A stretch of DNA of 64,000 nt. It comes from Ignavibacteriota bacterium (GTDB taxonomy: Bacteria > Bacteroidota > Ignavibacteria > Tepidaquicellales > Tepidaquicellaceae). The translations under genes were made by a program, and so were the position numbers. Under the pieces are notes generated by a model. That model was not told where the DNA came from, searched no databases, and saw only the letters and a program-made list of their open reading frames with translations. Where the stretch lies: positions 150,187 through 214,186 of the forward strand of contig JACREY010000017.1 of NCBI GenBank assembly GCA_016218085.1, given 5' to 3'. Below are positions 4,695 through 50,703 of this stretch, one piece after another; the stretch's first letter is position 1, and each line of letters starts with the position of its first letter.

Positions 4695-6050
4695 ATGGAA
4701 AATTCGGATTTTAAAATACTGGTAGTTGATGATGAAGCAAATTCAACTCAAATTCTGAGGAAAGTGCTTAATAAGAAAGGATACTCTGTAAGTGAGGAAA
4801 ACGACAGTGTAAAAGCAAAGAAGCTGATTAACGAAAATTTCTATGATATAATAATTTCTGATCTTCAGATGCCGGAAGTTGACGGACTGGACCTGTTGAA
4901 GGAAAAGCCGGTTGACAGCATATTTATAATGATTACCGGATACGGCTCGGTAGCAACAGCAGTTGAGTCAATGAAAAACGGTGCATTCGATTACATCAAT
5001 AAGCCGTTTAACCTTGAGGAATTTATCATTAAAGTAGAAAAGGCAGTTGATAAAATCAAAATGACAAGAAGAATACAGGACCTGAAAACCATAATCGAAG
5101 ACAATTATCCGTTTAAAAATATAATCGGCACGAGTAAAAAGATGAACGAGGTTTTTGATTTTATAAAAAAGATTTCAAAAGTGAACGTAAATGTTTTGAT
5201 AGAAGGTCAAAGCGGAACGGGCAAGGAACTTGTTGCAAGGGCAATCCATCAAAACAGCGACAGAAAATCACAGCCTTTCATTGCGATAAACTGCAGTGCA
5301 ATCCCTGAGAACCTGCTTGAGAGCGAGCTTTTCGGGCACACGAAGGGAGCTTTTACCGGTGCATTCGAAACACAAAGAGGGGTTTTCGAGCAGGCAGACG
5401 GAGGAACGCTTTTCCTGGATGAAATCGCTGAAATGCCTTACAATCTTCAGGCAAAACTTCTTCGCGTAATCGAAAACTGGGAAATAAAATCTCTCGGAAG
5501 CGATAAGATAAAAAAGATTGACGTTAGATTACTTTCGGCGACAAATCAAAACCTGAAAGAATTCATCAAGCAGAAAAAGTTCAGAGAAGACCTATACTTC
5601 AGGCTTTCGACTTTTTCAATAACATTACCGCCTTTGAATGAAAGAATATCCGATATTCCTCTGATTGTGAACCATTACCTGAAGATATTATCCGTAAAGT
5701 TTGACAAAGAATTTTCGATAACTCCATTAGCTTTAGATGTGCTTATGAAGCACAAATGGAATGGAAATGTCAGAGAACTTGAAAACGTTTTGGAGCAGGC
5801 GGCGATAATCACAACAAATAACAGTATAGATTCAAAACACTTCAGCTTTCTCGACTTTTCAGATAACCTTGAAGACTGTCTTAAAAGTGCAGTGGATATA
5901 AGCCTTGATGAGCTTGAAAAAAGGTACATTCTAAAAGTACTTGAAGAAAACGAATGGAACAAAGCCAAAGCCTCACAGATTCTGAAAATTGACAGAAAAA
6001 CACTTTACAAAAAAATAAAGGATTATAGCATCGTAGAAAAGCAGGATTAA
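4695..6050 (+). CDS. Sigma-54-dependent response regulator (NtrC family)
   Basis: 451 residues from the ATG at 4695. The frame is open upstream to 4440, but that part is low-complexity, contains hairpins and matches nothing; the receiver starts immediately after MENSDF. Residues 1-120 are a complete receiver: VVDDE acidic pocket, ISDLQMP phospho-Asp, ITGYGS, and NKPF with the conserved Lys. Residues about 140-375 are the AAA+ sigma-54 activation domain with Walker A GQSGTGKE, an intact GAFTGA loop and Walker B TLFLDE. The C-terminus is a Fis-type helix-turn-helix ([20 protein letters not shown]). Lying between two cytochrome units that each have a sigma-54-like promoter, it is the likely activator of both. 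No partner histidine kinase is in the window. Confidence 0.93.
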
Positions 6051-6067
6051 TGTGGACTTTTTCCACA
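6051..6067. promoter_or_regulatory. Candidate activator site 3 (TGTGGA-N5-TCCACA)
   Basis: A clean inverted repeat, TGTGGACTTTTTCCACA, begins right after the activator's stop codon. It lies about 65-80 bp upstream of the sigma-54 element at 6115-6131. Its form and distance suit the upstream activating sequence of an NtrC-type regulator; binding by the 4695-6050 product is inference. Confidence 0.45.
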
Positions 6068-6114
6068 CATAAAATATAGAATATACATAAAAATCAACGT
6101 TTTTAGGTTATTTT

Positions 6115-6131
6115 TTGGTATAATTATTGCA
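6115..6131 (+). promoter_or_regulatory. Sigma-54-like promoter of the cytochrome gene series
   Basis: TTGGTATAATTATTGCA has the sigma-54 elements at exact spacing: TTGG, 8 nt, then TTGCA. That gives invariant GG and GC ten bases apart. The middle of the -24 element (CACG) is not conserved. Transcription would start near 6141, about 15 nt before the first gene. An inverted repeat (6051-6067) and the activator gene lie directly upstream. Confidence 0.6.
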
Positions 6132-6156
6132 CTTCTATATTATATATATTTAGGTG

Positions 6157-6528
6157 ATGGATTTTAAAATTCACATATTTTGCGGGACATCTTATCTGTG
6201 CAAGCTGATAAGAAAGACTTTTGTCAGGGAACCATATACGTTTAACTGTACAGAAGTTACCGATAAGTTAAACGATAAATCGGGAAAGCTGGATTATACT
6301 CCCGATTGCATTATCTTTGACAAGGATATTGCCGGAGATTTCAAGGAAGAAATAATCAATAAGCATTCTGATTCCAGCATTATTCTTCTGCCTTCCCTGA
6401 ACGAGATTGAAGCTCTTGCAAATTCAAAAAATGTGTTTCAGATTTCAGAACCTTTTAAATTAAGCGAATTAAGCGAAGTATTAAAAGAAATTTATCATAA
6501 TAAACAAATTGAAGAATCCATTAATTAG
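6157..6528 (+). CDS. Degenerate stand-alone receiver-like protein
   Basis: 123 residues from ATG 6157 (GTG at 6154 in frame is an alternative). The layout is that of a CheY-like receiver: beta strand FKIHIFCG, a central DCIIFDKDI with Asp where the phospho-Asp would be, SSIILLPS, then SEPFKLSELSEVLKEI in place of the usual KPF segment. The acidic pair of strand 1 is missing and the conserved Lys before PF is Glu, so classical phosphorylation is doubtful. It is the first gene after the sigma-54-like promoter, and the next cytochrome gene starts 20 bp inside it. A regulatory or partner-binding role is likely but unproven. Confidence 0.7.
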   Translation: MDFKIHIFCGTSYLCKLIRKTFVREPYTFNCTEVTDKLNDKSGKLDYTPDCIIFDKDIAGDFKEEIINKHSDSSIILLPSLNEIEALANSKNVFQISEPFKLSELSEVLKEIYHNKQIEESIN

Positions 6529-8440
6529 AAAAAGCACAAGACTATTAATAATTTCATTGTTATTTTTGGCAGTAATAATCTCTGCTTTATTCACATACCA
6601 GAGAACAAAAGCCAAAGGTACGGATGACTGCCTGGTCTGCCACGAAGACAAGGACCTGGTAATGGAAGTAAACGGAAAAAAGATTTCTCTTTTTGTTAAC
6701 GGAAAGGAATTCAAGAAATCGATGCACGGTGCAATTGAATGCACCGATTGTCATCAGAATTACAAAGCGGAAGAGTTTCCGCATAATCCTAAAAAGCAGG
6801 AAATTGACTGCAAAGCGTGCCACGATAACGTTAAGTCGGAGCCGGGTAATGTGCACAATAACGTAAAATGTTACAGCTGCCATTCTGCTCATAATGTAAA
6901 ATCCGCGAAGGAGTTGTCGAAGAACCAGACCGATAATTGTCTTGGCTGCCACAAGAGCAAAAATGTACAGTCTTTCAAAACCAGCATACACGATAAAAAG
7001 AACGTGAAATGCAGCGACTGTCATCAGGGCGGTCATTCAGTAAAGAAGATTACAAAGTCGGAATCGATGAACAGCTGCGGCAAGTGCCACGCAAAAGACC
7101 AGAAAGATTTTTCCAACAGCGTTCACCAGGTAGTATTAAGACAGGGTAACTCGAAAGCACCTACCTGCATAGACTGTCACGGCTCGCACAAAGTCAACAG
7201 CAGCAAAATAGACATCGAGTCCCAGGGATGCCTAAAATGCCATCTGGACGAAAAGATGTTCCCCGGTGACGGAAAGGGTTCGACAAAATTTATTTCCGAA
7301 TACAAAACGAGCATACATTCAATTATACAGAAAAACGGAAAACAGGCGGCAGGATGCACGGACTGTCACGGGAACCATATGATACAACAAAACGACCCAA
7401 GCAGACCATCAACAACAAAGTCAAAAATTTTTGAAACCTGCGGAAAATGCCACGGAGATCTTGTAGAAAAATTCAAGGGTTCGATGCACGGTCAGGAAAT
7501 GCTAAAGGGAAATGACAAAGCCCCGACCTGCGCGACCTGTCACGGTGAGCATAACATTAAATCGGTTTCATTATCAGATGAGTTTTCGAAAATCAATCAG
7601 GTTGACTTATGCCTTAAATGCCATCAGGAACAAAAGCTCCCGCATAAAAATTACAAGGGAGAAGACGTGTTGATAAGCAATTACAAGGACAGTTATCATT
7701 ACATCGCTTTAAAAAACGGTAAGAATGCGGCAACATGTTCAGACTGTCACGGCAGCCACGAAATGAAGAAAGTAGATGATCCTGATGCAAAAATAAACAG
7801 AAAGAATATTCCGAAGACCTGCGGTCAAAGCGGGTGTCACACAAAGCAATTGAATGATTTCACAGGAAGCATTCACGAGACATCACTGACACAGAAAAAC
7901 AGTCCGGACGCACCAAACTGCAGTTCGTGTCACGGCAATCACCAGATCGCAAAAAAGGATGATGTGAATAACAGGATAGCAAGCAGTAAAGGTCTTGTTC
8001 AGTTATGTTCGGACTGTCACAATTCGGTCGAGATGACGCAGAAGTACAACATACCGACAGGAAGGACCGACTCATACCTGAACAGTTTCCACGGACTTGC
8101 CGTTCGCGGAGGATCAAAGGTTGCGGCAAACTGCGAAAGCTGCCACGGATATCACAACATAAGGCCTTCATCGGATTCATTATCGACAATAAGCAAAAAG
8201 AATCTGCCTGAAACCTGCGGGAAATGCCATCCCGGTGCAGAGCAAACATTATTCAATACAAAAATTCACATTACTGATTCGTTGTCGGAATCCCCGATGC
8301 TGTACTGGATAACAAGAATTTACATCATATTGATAGTTCTAACAATAGGCGGCATGGCATTGCACAACATATTAGACTTAATTAAAAAAGGAAAAAAGAA
8401 AAACAAACAGAATGAAAACAACGGAGAAGATGGAAAATAA
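6509..8440 (+). CDS. Membrane-anchored 19-heme c-type cytochrome
   Basis: 643 residues. The start is TTG at 6509, overlapping the receiver-like gene by 20 bp. The first internal Met lies beyond the N-terminal membrane segment (LLIISLLFLAVIISALF), so an upstream non-ATG start is needed. Eighteen CXXCH sites (CLVCH near residue 41 to CGKCH near 573) plus one CX4CH (CGQSGCH) run through the protein, interleaved with distal His in repeats such as SIH/SMH and CxxCHGxH. A second membrane helix (IYIILIVLTIGGMAL, about 600-620) and a basic tail follow. It should be periplasmic and tethered at both ends to the inner membrane. The gene overlaps the following cytochrome b gene, which suggests a quinol-oxidising complex. 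Confidence 0.92.
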   Translation: MKNPLIRKSTRLLIISLLFLAVIISALFTYQRTKAKGTDDCLVCHEDKDLVMEVNGKKISLFVNGKEFKKSMHGAIECTDCHQNYKAEEFPHNPKKQEIDCKACHDNVKSEPGNVHNNVKCYSCHSAHNVKSAKELSKNQTDNCLGCHKSKNVQSFKTSIHDKKNVKCSDCHQGGHSVKKITKSESMNSCGKCHAKDQKDFSNSVHQVVLRQGNSKAPTCIDCHGSHKVNSSKIDIESQGCLKCHLDEKMFPGDGKGSTKFISEYKTSIHSIIQKNGKQAAGCTDCHGNHMIQQNDPSRPSTTKSKIFETCGKCHGDLVEKFKGSMHGQEMLKGNDKAPTCATCHGEHNIKSVSLSDEFSKINQVDLCLKCHQEQKLPHKNYKGEDVLISNYKDSYHYIALKNGKNAATCSDCHGSHEMKKVDDPDAKINRKNIPKTCGQSGCHTKQLNDFTGSIHETSLTQKNSPDAPNCSSCHGNHQIAKKDDVNNRIASSKGLVQLCSDCHNSVEMTQKYNIPTGRTDSYLNSFHGLAVRGGSKVAANCESCHGYHNIRPSSDSLSTISKKNLPETCGKCHPGAEQTLFNTKIHITDSLSESPMLYWITRIYIILIVLTIGGMALHNILDLIKKGKKKNKQNENNGEDGK

Positions 8441-42971: not shown

Positions 42972-44933
42972 TTATTTTACTTTTACAGAATCTATTGAAT
43001 TGTAAAGCTCCTGTACTTTTTTATCGTCGGGATAAAGTTTCAGATACCTTCCGAGATAATTTTTAGCTTCATCTTTTTTATTCATTTGTTTGTAGAAATT
43101 CCCGTACTGAAAAAGCGCTTCCTTGTAATCGGGAAATATTTCAAGCGCTTTCTGAATATTTTTCTCGAAATTATTTACATCGTTCAGCATTAGGTATGCA
43201 TTTGCCAGAAGGTAATACGTATATGAAGATTTCGGGTCAACAAGAATGCTTCCCTGCAAAACCTGCAGAGCCTGCTGAACCGCCTGCGGAGAGCGCTTGC
43301 TCATCATTTCTATTGCATACATATTCCTGTCCTTGGATTCAGCGGCGAGTATGTGAGTATAGTCGGGTATAAACTTAAACACTTCCATTGTTTCGAAGTT
43401 AGTTCCGGGGGCGGTGGTGAAGAGAGGATTCTGGTTAACGACCCTGTACCACTCCTGCAGGAATGCAATATGAGTGACTCCGGCAGATTTCAGATATTCG
43501 GTCATATAGGCGTTGTAATTCCTGTCATTGATTTTTGAAATCAGTTCTGGAGTAACAAGTCCCGCCACATCGACAATTTTTCTCCCGCAGTAAAATCCAA
43601 GCGCGCCTACATCGTGAGTGGCTATTATATCGCCTTCCCTGGTGTTTTCTTTAAGCCACATTGCAGTTGCCACCTGCCTGTCGGCTATGTACTTGCATTC
43701 TGCCGCATAGTCATTTTTTCCGCTGATATAAATATTTACCGATAAATAAATAGTGATTGCGGAAACCAGTAAAAACAATCCGATTGCAAAATTTCTGTTT
43801 TTAAAATATGAACCGAGTAGTTTTGCTATATCCCTGTATCCCAGCCCCGCAACGAGTATGAAAAAAGGAATAATCGGCATCATATACCTTCCGAAGCGGT
43901 GAGCATAAGGCATCTTATACCAGTAAACAAAAACCAGACCTAATGCAAATGCTATATATAAAATATTTCCGTTGTACTTTTTCTTAAATAAATCATAAAG
44001 AACTTTCAGTGCGGAGAAAATAAATCCCGCCATTATCACTGCATATCCGCCTTTTGTAAAATATTCCCAGACTTCCACCTTCATAAAAAATTCCTTGCTC
44101 TTGGCGGAGTAATAGACAATCTTGGCAGTGTAGGTATTCGGCAATATCGAGCCGGAGAGCATCAGGTTCATAATAAAATACACGAGCATTATTGCACCAA
44201 AAATAATTCCGATTTTTGCCAGCTCGCTTTTCTCAAAAAGCTTTATGGATTTATCCGTTTTTGCAAAATACTTTGCGATAAGGTAATCCAGCACGAGCGC
44301 GATAATAAAAATAAGTCCGTCAGGCCTGCCCCATAAAATCAATCCTGCAAACACCGCGAAAGGTACGGCTTTCCGGGTTTTATAAAAATACGCCGATGCA
44401 ATAAGTATAAAAATAAACATCGTGGTTTCCATTCCCGAAAGTGAAACGAAATTCATCCATTTATCAAGAAGGAAAATTCCCGTAAATATCAGGGCATAAT
44501 AATTTTCCTTTCCGAACTCGAAGCTGCTGAGTTTATAGAATGCAATTCCGGATAAAAGGAGAAAAGCAATGCCGAGAACGTAGCTCAATACCATTTCATT
44601 TTTCATAAAGAAAAATCCCGCTGCGAGAATCAGGGTGTAAATGGGAGAGGTGGAGCCGGCGGTTGCCATTTCGTTTTTGAAATAGGAAAAGCTATGGTAA
44701 TCCACAAGGTTTTTTGCAAACGTAAGGTGAATCCACGGGTCATCCAACGGAAAGCCGAATGCGCCGTTTACGGACTTAGCAAAGTTCAGGTAATAGAACG
44801 AAAGTCCGAAAGAAATCAAAGCTATGGCTGCAAAAATCAGGTATCTGATGTTTTTCGCCGGTTCAAAAGGAAGCTCGAGGTTTATTGCGGGCGCCTTTTG
44901 AGTCTGTTTTTTAATGTCTTTTTTCTGTGCCAT
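42972..44933 (-). CDS. Polytopic glycosyltransferase-like protein with C-terminal TPRs
   Basis: 653 residues. There are about 11 membrane helices. After helix 1 comes an outside loop with PLDDPWIHLTFAKNLV, the acidic DD pair typical of GT-C glycosyltransferases (ArnT/PMT-like). A further outside domain (about 420-530) contains EGDIIATHDVGALGFYCGR. Two to three TPR units close it (TYYLLANAYLMLNDVNNFEKN, ALFQYGNFYKQMNKKDEAKNY). It probably uses a lipid-linked sugar at the periplasmic face; the acceptor is unknown. It is the first gene of a four-gene minus-strand run. Confidence 0.82.
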   Translation of the reverse strand: MAQKKDIKKQTQKAPAINLELPFEPAKNIRYLIFAAIALISFGLSFYYLNFAKSVNGAFGFPLDDPWIHLTFAKNLVDYHSFSYFKNEMATAGSTSPIYTLILAAGFFFMKNEMVLSYVLGIAFLLLSGIAFYKLSSFEFGKENYYALIFTGIFLLDKWMNFVSLSGMETTMFIFILIASAYFYKTRKAVPFAVFAGLILWGRPDGLIFIIALVLDYLIAKYFAKTDKSIKLFEKSELAKIGIIFGAIMLVYFIMNLMLSGSILPNTYTAKIVYYSAKSKEFFMKVEVWEYFTKGGYAVIMAGFIFSALKVLYDLFKKKYNGNILYIAFALGLVFVYWYKMPYAHRFGRYMMPIIPFFILVAGLGYRDIAKLLGSYFKNRNFAIGLFLLVSAITIYLSVNIYISGKNDYAAECKYIADRQVATAMWLKENTREGDIIATHDVGALGFYCGRKIVDVAGLVTPELISKINDRNYNAYMTEYLKSAGVTHIAFLQEWYRVVNQNPLFTTAPGTNFETMEVFKFIPDYTHILAAESKDRNMYAIEMMSKRSPQAVQQALQVLQGSILVDPKSSYTYYLLANAYLMLNDVNNFEKNIQKALEIFPDYKEALFQYGNFYKQMNKKDEAKNYLGRYLKLYPDDKKVQELYNSIDSVKVK

Positions 44934-44954: not shown

Positions 44955-45011
44955 ATTGTTTTATCAATTTTGTAATTTGCCACTTGCCGATTGCCGCAGA
45001 GACATAGAGAA
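44955..45011 (+). repeat. Left 57-bp direct repeat of the RAYT module
   Basis: Starts ATTGTTTTATCAATTTTGTA and ends in CAGAGACATAGAGAA. The equal-length copy at 46097-46153 differs at about six positions. The pair brackets the transposase module. Confidence 0.75.
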
Positions 45012-45053
45012 TAAAGCTATCCCCTTTACTCATAAGAAACTAGATACAAAATC

Positions 45054-45083
45054 CTCGTTACCAAGCTCCAGCTTGGTAACGAG
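45054..45083 (+). repeat. REP palindrome R1
   Basis: CTCGTTACCAAGCT-CC-AGCTTGGTAACGAG, a perfect 14-bp stem with the CC centre (same orientation as R2). Confidence 0.9.
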
Positions 45084-45142
45084 TTATTGTTGTAAAATTA
45101 TTTTATCGTTTTTTATAATCGAAATAAATCATATTTTACTAT

Positions 45143-45439
45143 ATGAAAACCAAAAAAACACCACAGGAAAAGAAAGAAATAAGTTACAAAAAAGACAGAA
45201 AAAACGATTACGGCGAAAACAATAAATCTTCAAGAAAATCTATTAAATATCGAAAAACCTGGGTAAATCAAACATTTAGAAGAGGAATAAACCAGATATT
45301 AACAGATACAATCAAAACTGAAGATGGTAGCGAGGAAGCAAATGAAAAAGTGAACTCAGTTAAAAGAAAACCCTGGAAGAAACAGACGGATATTCCATTA
45401 GGAATATATCTTAAGCGTAAAAGTAAAGATAAGGGTTAA
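45143..45439 (+). CDS. Small basic protein inside the RAYT module
   Basis: 98 residues, very rich in Lys, Arg and Asn (KKTPQEKKEISYKKDRKND, SIKYRKTWVNQTFRRGINQ). It has a more acidic middle (TEDGSEEANEKV) and a basic end (KRKPWKKQTDIPLGIYLKRK). No known domain is recognised. Such charge suggests nucleic-acid binding, but the A-rich DNA could also produce it by chance. It lies between two directly oriented REPs, immediately upstream of the transposase, so it may be a passenger or accessory of the element. Confidence 0.5.
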   Translation: MKTKKTPQEKKEISYKKDRKNDYGENNKSSRKSIKYRKTWVNQTFRRGINQILTDTIKTEDGSEEANEKVNSVKRKPWKKQTDIPLGIYLKRKSKDKG

Positions 45440-45465
45440 ATATATTACTAAAAACAAACTAACAA

Positions 45466-45494
45466 CTCGTTACCAAGCTCCAGCTTGGTAACGC
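45466..45494 (+). repeat. REP palindrome R2
   Basis: CTCGTTACCAAGCT-CC-AGCTTGGTAACGC. It is the exact reverse complement of R3 at 46060-46088. The transposase ATG follows 8 bp after it. Confidence 0.9.
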
Positions 45495-45502
45495 AAAAAC
45501 AT

Positions 45503-46045
45503 ATGCGAACCCGTTATAAAATACCGGATTATAAAGCATCTTGTTTTATCACATCAACTATTATTGATTGGATTCCTGTTTTTAATGAAAGCAAATATTT
45601 TGAAATATTAATTGATGCAATAAAATACAATCAACAACATAAAGACTTTGAAGTTTTCGCTTATGTCATTATGGTTAATCACTTTCACATGATATGCCGT
45701 TCAGATAATTTATCAAATATTTTTAGGTCGATAAAAAGTTATACCGCAAAAAAAATAATTGAAAAATTAAAAGCCGACGGAAAATTGAACTTGTTGAATA
45801 TGTTTGAGGAAAATAAGCGAAAAGGGAAAAAGGTAAGCCAATATCAAATATGGCAAGAGGGTTTTATGCCGAAAGAGATATTATCTGAAAAAATGTTTAA
45901 CCAGAAACTGTTATATATTCATTACAATCCGGTCGAAGCGGGAATTGTTGATAATCCACAGGATTATGAGTATAGTTCTGCATTTGATTATTATTGGGCA
46001 AAGACAGGCAAGTTGAAGTTAGATTGTGTTGAGTATGAGAGATGA
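45503..46045 (+). CDS. REP-associated tyrosine transposase (RAYT, Y1_Tnp)
   Basis: 180 residues from ATG at 45503. A TTG in frame at 45485 lies inside the REP and is unlikely. The HUH metal site is VNHFHMICRS (near 68). The Y1 family end is visible as LLYIHYNPVEAGIVDNPQDYEYSSAFDYY, with the candidate catalytic Tyr in YIHYNP. RAYTs nick and join single-stranded REP sequences. The close REP pair in opposite orientation on both sides supports this gene being the enzyme for the GTTACCAAGCT repeats in this window. Confidence 0.9.
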   Translation: MRTRYKIPDYKASCFITSTIIDWIPVFNESKYFEILIDAIKYNQQHKDFEVFAYVIMVNHFHMICRSDNLSNIFRSIKSYTAKKIIEKLKADGKLNLLNMFEENKRKGKKVSQYQIWQEGFMPKEILSEKMFNQKLLYIHYNPVEAGIVDNPQDYEYSSAFDYYWAKTGKLKLDCVEYER

Positions 46046-46059
46046 AAAAAATGTGTTAT

Positions 46060-46088
46060 GCGTTACCAAGCTGGAGCTTGGTAACGAG
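46060..46088 (-). repeat. REP palindrome R3 (inverted)
   Basis: GCGTTACCAAGCT-GG-AGCTTGGTAACGAG, opposite orientation to R1 and R2, 14 bp after the transposase stop. Confidence 0.9.
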
Positions 46089-46096
46089 GAGGTGTG

Positions 46097-46153
46097 ATTG
46101 TTTTATCAATTTTGTAATTTGGCACTTAATGATTGCCACAGAGACACAGAGAA
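46097..46153 (+). repeat. Right 57-bp direct repeat of the RAYT module
   Basis: Same start (ATTGTTTTATCAATTTTGTA) and same end word (CAGAGACACAGAGAA) as the left copy at 44955-45011. Confidence 0.75.
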
Positions 46154-46565
46154 ATTTCTCCCCCTCACTTTTTCCTTGATATTTACATACATAATTCAGA
46201 CATTTACGGTGAAAGAGTTTAAGTCGGGTTAAATCTATTTAATCATACAATAAGCAAAGGGATTTGAAATCAATACCGGTAAATCCCGATTCTGAATAAT
46301 TCCTGCCGGATTATAATAAAAACAACGATAATACCGGATTGCGGAGGAAAAGAGAATTAAACCAAAAATATTGTTTTTTATGTTTTTCACTTGAAACTTT
46401 ACGTAATTTATAATAGTTTATATTAACATCATTAGACATTATATATCACACCGGTATACTTCTATCGAAGATTATAACATGAGAGATTAATTAAATACAA
46501 TATATTTAGACATTTAACAACCAATAAAAAAAATCCATAACAATACTTAAGGAAAGGTAACAGAA
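46154..46565 (+). promoter_or_regulatory. Gene-free leader region of rho
   Basis: About 410 bases with no gene. A GGGATTT/AAATCCC hairpin (46259-46287) and AT-rich DNA with several ATACCGG words (46275, 46341, 46450) precede the rho start. AAGGAAAGG lies 7 nt before the ATG. Rho controls its own synthesis in several bacteria through the leader, so a long 5' UTR would make sense, but no promoter can be fixed here. Confidence 0.45.
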
Positions 46566-47870
46566 ATGGCAGAAAAAAACGGCAAGAAAGAGCCCGTTGC
46601 ACCGGAAACCCCGGATAAAGATAAAAATTTCGAGATATTAAAGACAAAGAAAGTTGCTGAGCTCATTCAAATCGCTAAGGAACTGAAATTAACAGGTTAC
46701 AGCGATTTGAAGAAGCAGGAACTTATATTCAAGATAATCGAAGCAACATCTCAAAAGGACGGCTACGCTTTTGCCGCCGGAGTTCTTGAAGTTCTGCCCG
46801 ACGGATACGGATTCCTGAGGTCAACGGATTATAACTATTTACCCTCCCCGGATGATATTTACGTCTCACCTTCACAGATTAAAAAGTTTTCACTCAAAAC
46901 GGGAGATACGGTCAGCGGACAGGTTAGACCGCCCAAGGAAGGAGAAAGATTCTTTGCACTTCTTAAAGTAGAAGAAGTAAATTTTGGCGACCCTGAGAAA
47001 ATAAGGGAAAGAATCATCTTCGATAACCTTACGCCGATGTATCCCGACAATCGTTTTGTGCTGGAGACCGTACCTGCCGAATACGCAATGCGCATAATGG
47101 ATTTGTTTACCCCCATTGGCAAGGGCCAAAGAGGGCTGATAGTTTCCCCCCCAAAAAGCGGTAAGACTATTTTGCTACAGACGATAGCAAATAGCATTAC
47201 CCGAAATCATCCGGAAGTACATTTGATAGTTCTTCTGATTGACGAAAGGCCTGAAGAAGTAACGGATATGCAGAGGAATGTGAGAGCGGAAGTAATCAGC
47301 TCGACATTCGACGAACCGCCTGACCGTCACGTGCAGGTTTCGGAAGTTGTATTGCAAAAAGCAAAACGCCTTACCGAAGCAAAAAAGGATGTGGTTATAC
47401 TACTTGACAGTATTACACGTCTTGCGCGCGCACACAACACAGTGATTCCGCACAGCGGAAAGATATTATCCGGCGGTGTTGACGCAAATGCTTTGCATAA
47501 GCCGAAAAGATTTTTCGGAGCTGCCAGAAACATCGATGAAGGCGGCAGTCTGACAATCATAGCCACGGCTTTGATTGAAACCGGCAGCAGAATGGATGAA
47601 GTCATATTCGAAGAATTCAAAGGCACGGGTAATATGGAAATAGTCCTGGACAGAAGACTGTCCGACAGGAGAATATTCCCTGCAATTGACATCAACCGTT
47701 CCGGTACGAGAAAAGAAGAGCTTCTGCTCGATAATGACATGCTGAACAGGATGTACTTATTGAGAAAAATTACTTCGGATTTAAACCCCGTCGAGGCGAT
47801 GGAGTTTCTCCTCGAAAAGATGCGCGGTACAAAATCCAATAAAGAGTTCCTTGCTTCTATGAATTCTTAA
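46566..47870 (+). CDS. rho: Transcription termination factor Rho
   Basis: 434 residues. In order: an N-terminal helical domain ([28 protein letters not shown]), the cold-shock RNA-binding fold ([30 protein letters not shown]), Walker A SPPKSGKT (about 197), Walker [12 protein letters not shown], and Q/R loop elements to the end. It is normal in length, with no large N-terminal insertion. It is co-oriented with RNase G 32 bp downstream, giving an RNA termination and turnover pair. Confidence 0.97.
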
Positions 47871-50674: not shown

Positions 50675-50703
50675 TCGTTACCAAGCTGGAGCTTGGTAAC
50701 GAG
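50675..50703 (-). repeat. REP palindrome R4, solo copy
   Basis: TCGTTACCAAGCT-GG-AGCTTGGTAACGAG, the same repeat as those beside the RAYT gene, 4.6 kb away and without a transposase. Confidence 0.88.

Follow-up and report, generated by a model that had tools for sequence, protein, structure and literature searches.

Insertion sequences of the IS200/IS605 group share with the module described here a transposase of the Y1/HUH superfamily and hairpin ends. They insert single-stranded DNA and are not known to duplicate the target, and both end hairpins act on one strand; by IS200-like logic, the single-strand ends are arranged in direct orientation. RAYT (TnpAREP) genes are known from REPtrons (PMC2817692; PMC8266576), and the available text of PMC2817692 gives REPs on both sides as their architecture and places about a third of RAYTs within a REP array. 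According to PMC8266576, evidence for tnpAREP mobility is lacking, and according to PMC3116915, RAYTs appear incapable of self-mobilization. The prevailing view is that RAYTs are domesticated and immobile and only spread REPs, and a long target duplication around one is not expected. TIRtrons, with TIRYT enzymes, offer another comparison, as a tyrosine transposase lies there between inverted repeats without a GTAG tag (PMC3733652, available text); the terms “direct repeat” and “duplicat” have 0 occurrences in the main text of that paper. Target duplications around RAYTs are unreported in the available text of PMC2817692, PMC3733652, PMC3116915, PMC8266576, PMC3686654, and PMC6006769, a set that covers little of the subscription literature.

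We analyzed a stretch of 64,000 nucleotides (“the window”) from an Ignavibacteriota bacterium (GCA_016218085.1, contig JACREY010000017.1). A preliminary description of this DNA had proposed a RAYT, three REPs, and a small basic ORF bracketed by a 57-bp repeat, and we recovered this arrangement at the same positions. The order across positions 44955 to 46153 is 57-bp repeat, 40 bp, REP, 98-codon ORF, REP, RAYT, REP, 6 bp, and 57-bp repeat. The features, with the neighboring genes, are as follows.

42972 to 44933, minus strand: left neighbor “GT,” a 653-aa membrane protein with C-terminal TPRs and its start codon at 44933, located beside rho in several relatives
44955 to 45011, plus strand: direct repeat, left copy (57 bp), continuous with the GT upstream region; putative original target copy
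45052 to 45083, minus strand: outer left REP, a 30/30 inverted match (45052 to 45081) to the right REP
45143 to 45439, plus strand: basic ORF, 98 codons, of an unnamed conserved family
45466 to 45493, minus strand: inner left REP, oriented like the outer one, immediately before the RAYT start
45503 to 46045, plus strand: RAYT, 180 aa (NF047646), with motifs NHFH, WQ, YIHYNP, and SS read from the sequence
46061 to 46090, plus strand: right REP, in the opposite orientation to the two left REPs
46097 to 46153, plus strand: direct repeat, right copy (57 bp), 6 nt beyond the right REP match; putative duplicated target copy
46566 to 47870, plus strand: right neighbor, transcription terminator Rho
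50676 to 50701, plus strand: solo REP of the same family

The RAYT scored 110.4 bits against NCBIfam NF047646 (cut-off, 80), and its gene is enclosed by an inverted pair of REPs with further copies in the genome. Comparison with the motif table in the available text of PMC6006769 identified an HUH motif (NHFH) and a predicted catalytic-tyrosine motif (YIHYNP). We rejected an identity as an IS200/IS605 transposase, with Pfam Y1_Tnp at 21.3 (cut-off, 23) and the IS200 model NF033573 at 16.6 (cut-off, 55). The locus may also differ from IS200/IS605 elements in its 57-bp repeat, a putative target duplication, and in the duplicated host DNA at sister loci. The ORF (30.6% GC) and the RAYT (30.4%) are alike in composition and both unlike their surroundings (window, 39.1%). 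The unit is single copy, as no second copy of the module was found in its own genome.

The REP core is a near-perfect 26-bp palindrome, CGTTACCAAGCT(CC/GG)AGCTTGGTAACG, found at 45056, 45468, 46061, and, as a solo copy 4.6 kb from the module, 50676, with 0 matches expected in shuffles. The inverted REPs that had been claimed around the transposase were borne out, the outer pair being complementary at 30/30 positions and the pair adjoining the RAYT matching at 97% over 33 nt. The same holds for the third REP said to set off the small ORF in direct orientation (the two left REPs are identical over 28 nt) and for the solo REP. The 3.3-Mb genome holds 14 REP places at ≤2 mismatches. In all 15 listed copies (L010 read in its other orientation), AG stands next to the REP after AACG, and a GTAG or GTGG tag beside the palindrome is absent from all 15. 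As in the REPtrons of PMC2817692 and PMC8266576 (available text), the RAYT matches NF047646 and sits between inverted REPs that are scattered in the genome; the window module differs from them in having AG in place of the GTAG tag, an extra gene between REPs, and a non-REP repeat on the outside. It differs from TIRtrons, as described in the available text of PMC3733652, in that its inverted repeats are short REP palindromes also found elsewhere in the genome. Among the first 30 RAYT loci that we inspected (29 from relatives or other RAYTs), palindromes stood on both sides of nearly every RAYT, often inverted. Inverted REPs around a RAYT are therefore ordinary, and the direct repeat is the real finding.

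The two copies of this repeat are identical at 51/57 positions (11% diverged), as the preliminary description had put it with about six differences; 375 random placements in the window at the same spacing reached at most 34/57. The 57-mer has no hairpin and no REP just outside it, the next one being 4.6 kb away, and its distance to the nearest REP is asymmetric (40 bp on the left and 6 bp on the right). A 31-nt pattern from its first half occurs in its own genome only at these two places. Its tail, TTGCCACAGAGACACAGAGAA, was found at 8 places in the genome at ≤3 mismatches (2 matches for a reversed-pattern control) and, at ≤1 mismatch, in 8 of 59 genomes, a count that includes its own (none for the control). 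One copy of the tail lies about 20 bp from a REP. The condition named beforehand as fatal to a mobile module, a repeat that is widespread without it, thus applies to the tail motif and not to the first half, for which the genome offers no third copy. TTGCCACAGAGACACAGAGAA recurs as a dispersed motif at low copy number in this genome and in others of the class, at times close to REPs (G000 C2:49688, C2:96224, C21:398655; L137 to L148).

GT and rho are adjacent without a RAYT module in several relatives. The left copy of the repeat, together with the bases before it, was matched by the GT upstream region of four genomes (G005, G012, G016, and G011; E < 1e-3), all without the module. The best match was that of G016 (76% over 50 nt); matches were weaker in G021, G002, and G024, with nothing notable in G015. 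The GT upstream region of G005 also carries a tail-like motif, and its match, which is short and gapped, was equaled in letter shuffles by 9/1000 for the left copy and 0/1000 for the right copy. In G001, of the same genus, homology runs up to 44950, is replaced by other sequence with a small gene, and resumes at 46366; the 57-mer is absent from its GT-rho interval. The proposed comparison with empty sites thus held in that the module is absent from relatives and fell short in that, for the window site itself, G005 matches weakly and G001 is divergent. Because the GT upstream region of relatives resembles the left copy, that copy looks original and the right copy looks like a duplicate, a reading of sequence likeness with weaker support than that for L068 (below). 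The GT-rho intervals of G001 and G005 (L108 and L109) each hold another small gene of 126 to 127 aa with a start like that of a secreted protein, and this interval may be a favored place for gene insertion.

For a survey of direct repeats, 165 RAYT ORFs were reduced to 138 nonredundant loci whose flanks measured 300 bp or more on each side, after dropping duplicates and short flanks. Direct repeats within 600 bp were present at 80/138 RAYT loci (none at the other 58) versus 13/249 other ORFs of the same stretches, and within 1200 bp at E ≤ 1e-5 at 81/138. REP hairpins are present in most of the RAYT-flanking repeats, which resemble arrays. When we counted only single, hairpin-free repeats of 35 bp or longer, 13/138 RAYTs and 7/249 control ORFs were flanked (p = 0.007). 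Direct repeats of any kind were not found around 26 rho loci, and those at loci of the small-ORF family (2/23) were short or weak. For L150 and L151, two further RAYTs in the genome that contains the window, the direct repeats look REP-like and not like host DNA.

We picked 14 loci by eye from this survey and inspected them. At 6 of the 14, one repeat copy overlaps the end of a Pfam-recognized host gene, and the gene stays open on one side with a fragment on the other:

L058: 3' end of an IMS polymerase (polymerase IV) gene; the other copy spans the start of the next gene
L065: 5' end of a Mg-chelatase family gene (95 bp at 97%)
L195: end of a zinc-binding dehydrogenase gene
L198: end of a PLP enzyme gene
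L226: end of a MauE gene
L227: end of a PGA_cap gene

In the clear cases, the duplications are 43 to 109 bp and variable in length. At 8 of 12 loci examined (L058, L065, L170, L198, L202, L209, L226, and L227), no more than 13 bp separate the duplication from the left REP, and at all of these except L065 and L202 it is also no more than 24 bp from a right REP. The distances from repeat to terminal REP are as short as 4 and 5 bp (L170), 4 and 4 bp (L227), and 4 and 0 bp (L226).

One clean empty site was found. The L068 RAYT unit of G026 has a 43-bp terminator sequence on each side, the two copies being identical. A genome from the same genus, G027, shows the same flanks on both sides of one diverged terminator copy, with no RAYT in the stretch compared. 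On comparison of these sequences, this pair is the strongest single evidence that insertion duplicated the target. Partial matches, in which the site is single copy and the other flank is not conserved, were found for the PLP-enzyme end (G537 and G552), the Mg-chelatase start (G475, G049, and G094), and the dehydrogenase end (G073), while the flanks of L170 lie kilobases apart in G029 and G030. Paralogous units gave a second view of the boundaries. G572 has one unit in two full-length copies (C110 and C34), a partial copy (C65), and a fragment (C103), the others being 84 to 87% identical to the C110 query. In an alignment of L215 and L227, homology begins immediately beyond the left REP, ends a few bases past the right REP, and gives way to unrelated sequence on either side, and the L202/L221 pair in G425 has the same bounds. 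L227, L226, and L202 have duplications; the paralogous units L215 and L221 have none. Taken together, these comparisons show direct duplications of host DNA on both sides of RAYT units in related genomes, a single-copy empty site for one of these units, and homology of paralogous units that stops at the REPs. They suggest that such units insert themselves and duplicate at least 40 bases of target. The earlier remark that RAYTs rarely move as units fits this class poorly, given the paralogous units of G572 and G425. The idea of a mobile module itself was supported, since the module is absent from the orthologous GT-rho interval of relatives, related units are bracketed by host duplications, and one has a clean empty site.

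The small basic ORF is a different matter. It belongs to a conserved family, and the objection that it might not be conserved falls away. Homologues were found at 22 loci among genome contigs and on 1 viral contig, and on plasmids of Janthinobacterium (42%, E 3e-13) and a streptomycete (E 5e-5); a first scan of genome contigs with the ORF alone as query had found no relative. Members share a near-invariant block, TPQEKKxLSYxKDRRNxYGEN, and residues P7, K11, S14, D18, R19, N21, G24, E25, R31, R46, W78, K80, and L86 are invariant in 21 of them. The family (L080 to L104) consists of small basic proteins of about 90 to 170 aa with scattered hosts: actinomycetes, proteobacteria, a planctomycete, a Pyrinomonadaceae genome, and Aureispira. 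The ORF had no notable match in Pfam, NCBIfam, PHROGs, or PDB sequences. The AlphaFold model reached a mean pLDDT of 83.7 (70 to 73 for the other four models), and no PDB fold matched it at E ≤ 0.001 (best E, 5). Conserved neighbors of the family were not found in a scan of 83 of 87 listed neighbors, whose hits were nearly all different.

The preliminary description suggested that the ORF could have moved with the module as an extra gene and proposed a search for copies beside RAYTs; on our searches, a cargo role is at most putative. The unit is single copy, and the ORF was not found in 98 other relatives or 394 other genomes of the phylum, i.e., it occurs in 1/99 and 1/395, its own genome both times. 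At 25 homologue loci, there was one weak match to the RAYT model (E 1e-4 at L095), by an IS605-type transposase. That locus, from Nocardiopsis, carries an IS605-type tnpA/tnpB pair (4935 to 6574) about 0.7 kb downstream of the ORF homologue. We therefore rejected the family as a regular RAYT companion, having seen no recurrence with RAYTs in relatives, phylum genomes, or homologue loci. Of the two marks of a composite element, a second copy of the unit or a cargo gene that recurs beside the transposase, neither was found. An ORF of at least 80 aa lies within the outermost inverted repeats at 6/138 RAYT loci; these are the window locus, one second RAYT, and four that we judged by eye to be neighboring genes beside a further REP.

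We believe that the window module is probably a REPtron whose insertion between GT and rho, which are divergent, copied a target segment of about 57 bp. A REP-RAYT-REP unit with an extra REP and the small gene would have entered the upstream region between the two genes, leaving the original GT upstream sequence as the left copy and its duplicate as the right. With terminal REPs in inverted orientation, the HUH/Y1 enzyme would work on one strand at one end and on the opposite strand at the other. Target strands nicked at points tens of bases from each other could then each receive an end, and filling of the gaps would produce a long, variable duplication. The small ORF might have entered in the same event, with the outer left REP used as an end, or might have inserted beside the inner REP later; the REPs around it are direct, like single-strand ends on IS200-like logic, which would make a separate capture possible. 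The window copies differ at 6 of 57 positions even though the REPs are identical, which counts against this insertion and implies that the event is old or that the copies do not stem from one duplication. Also counting against it are the asymmetric junctions, the short and gapped match in G005, the absence of a 57-mer in G001, the 58 RAYT loci with no direct repeat, the prevalence of REP hairpins among the repeats found, the units L215 and L221 that have no duplication, and the REP-containing flanks of E. coli rayT.

Since the tail is a dispersed motif, the two copies could also have arisen independently, with the RAYT module merely lying between two members of a dispersed repeat. The spread of the tail through this and other genomes, and its one copy close to a REP, fit such an origin. 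We consider it unlikely, as the first half of the 57-mer is confined to these two places in the genome and looks like the sequence upstream of GT in several relatives, and the host-DNA duplications at other RAYT units are not the 57-mer. In another reading, the RAYT sits in an ordinary BIME and the direct repeats are units or spacers of a REP-module array. Most direct repeats around RAYTs do contain REP hairpins, and E. coli rayT is such a case. The 57-mer, however, contains no REP, has a first half unrepeated elsewhere, and is followed by no further REP just outside, and the coding-gene ends duplicated at L058, L065, L195, L198, L226, and L227 are not array spacers; this reading is already disfavored, and we regard it as very unlikely.

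The module might instead owe its place between the copies to local segmental duplication, or to homologous recombination involving short host repeats, with no part played by the RAYT. Lengths of 43 to 109 bp, variable in the clear cases, are unlike a fixed transposase footprint, and the link between the duplications and the enzyme is drawn from sequence. Yet repeats adjoin REPs at many unrelated sites, and the G027 site is single copy, so that this origin seems highly improbable to us. Insertion with target duplication remains our preferred reading of the module.

A wider proposal is tentative: RAYT units of this class could be true two-strand transposons, with inverted REPs, opposite-strand cuts, duplications of tens to more than 100 bp, and an extra REP that can carry a neighboring gene along, the small basic gene of this module being a candidate example. 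If so, RAYTs would not be purely domesticated. With host-DNA duplications, an empty site, and units that end at REPs, mobility of the unit becomes directly testable and the chemistry is constrained, because a single-strand IS608-type reaction should not duplicate 43 to 109 bp of target. The repeats flanking E. coli rayT are all REP arrays, so that for RAYTs beyond this class the case speaks neither for nor against long duplications. One rayT-less E. coli strain keeps REPs at the rayT site. At the same site in E. coli TUM14771 (L312, 1080 to 1200), both rayT and the REP array are missing, and about 100 bp of other sequence stands in their place. RAYT genes also occur side by side, as tandem pairs at L190 and L222.
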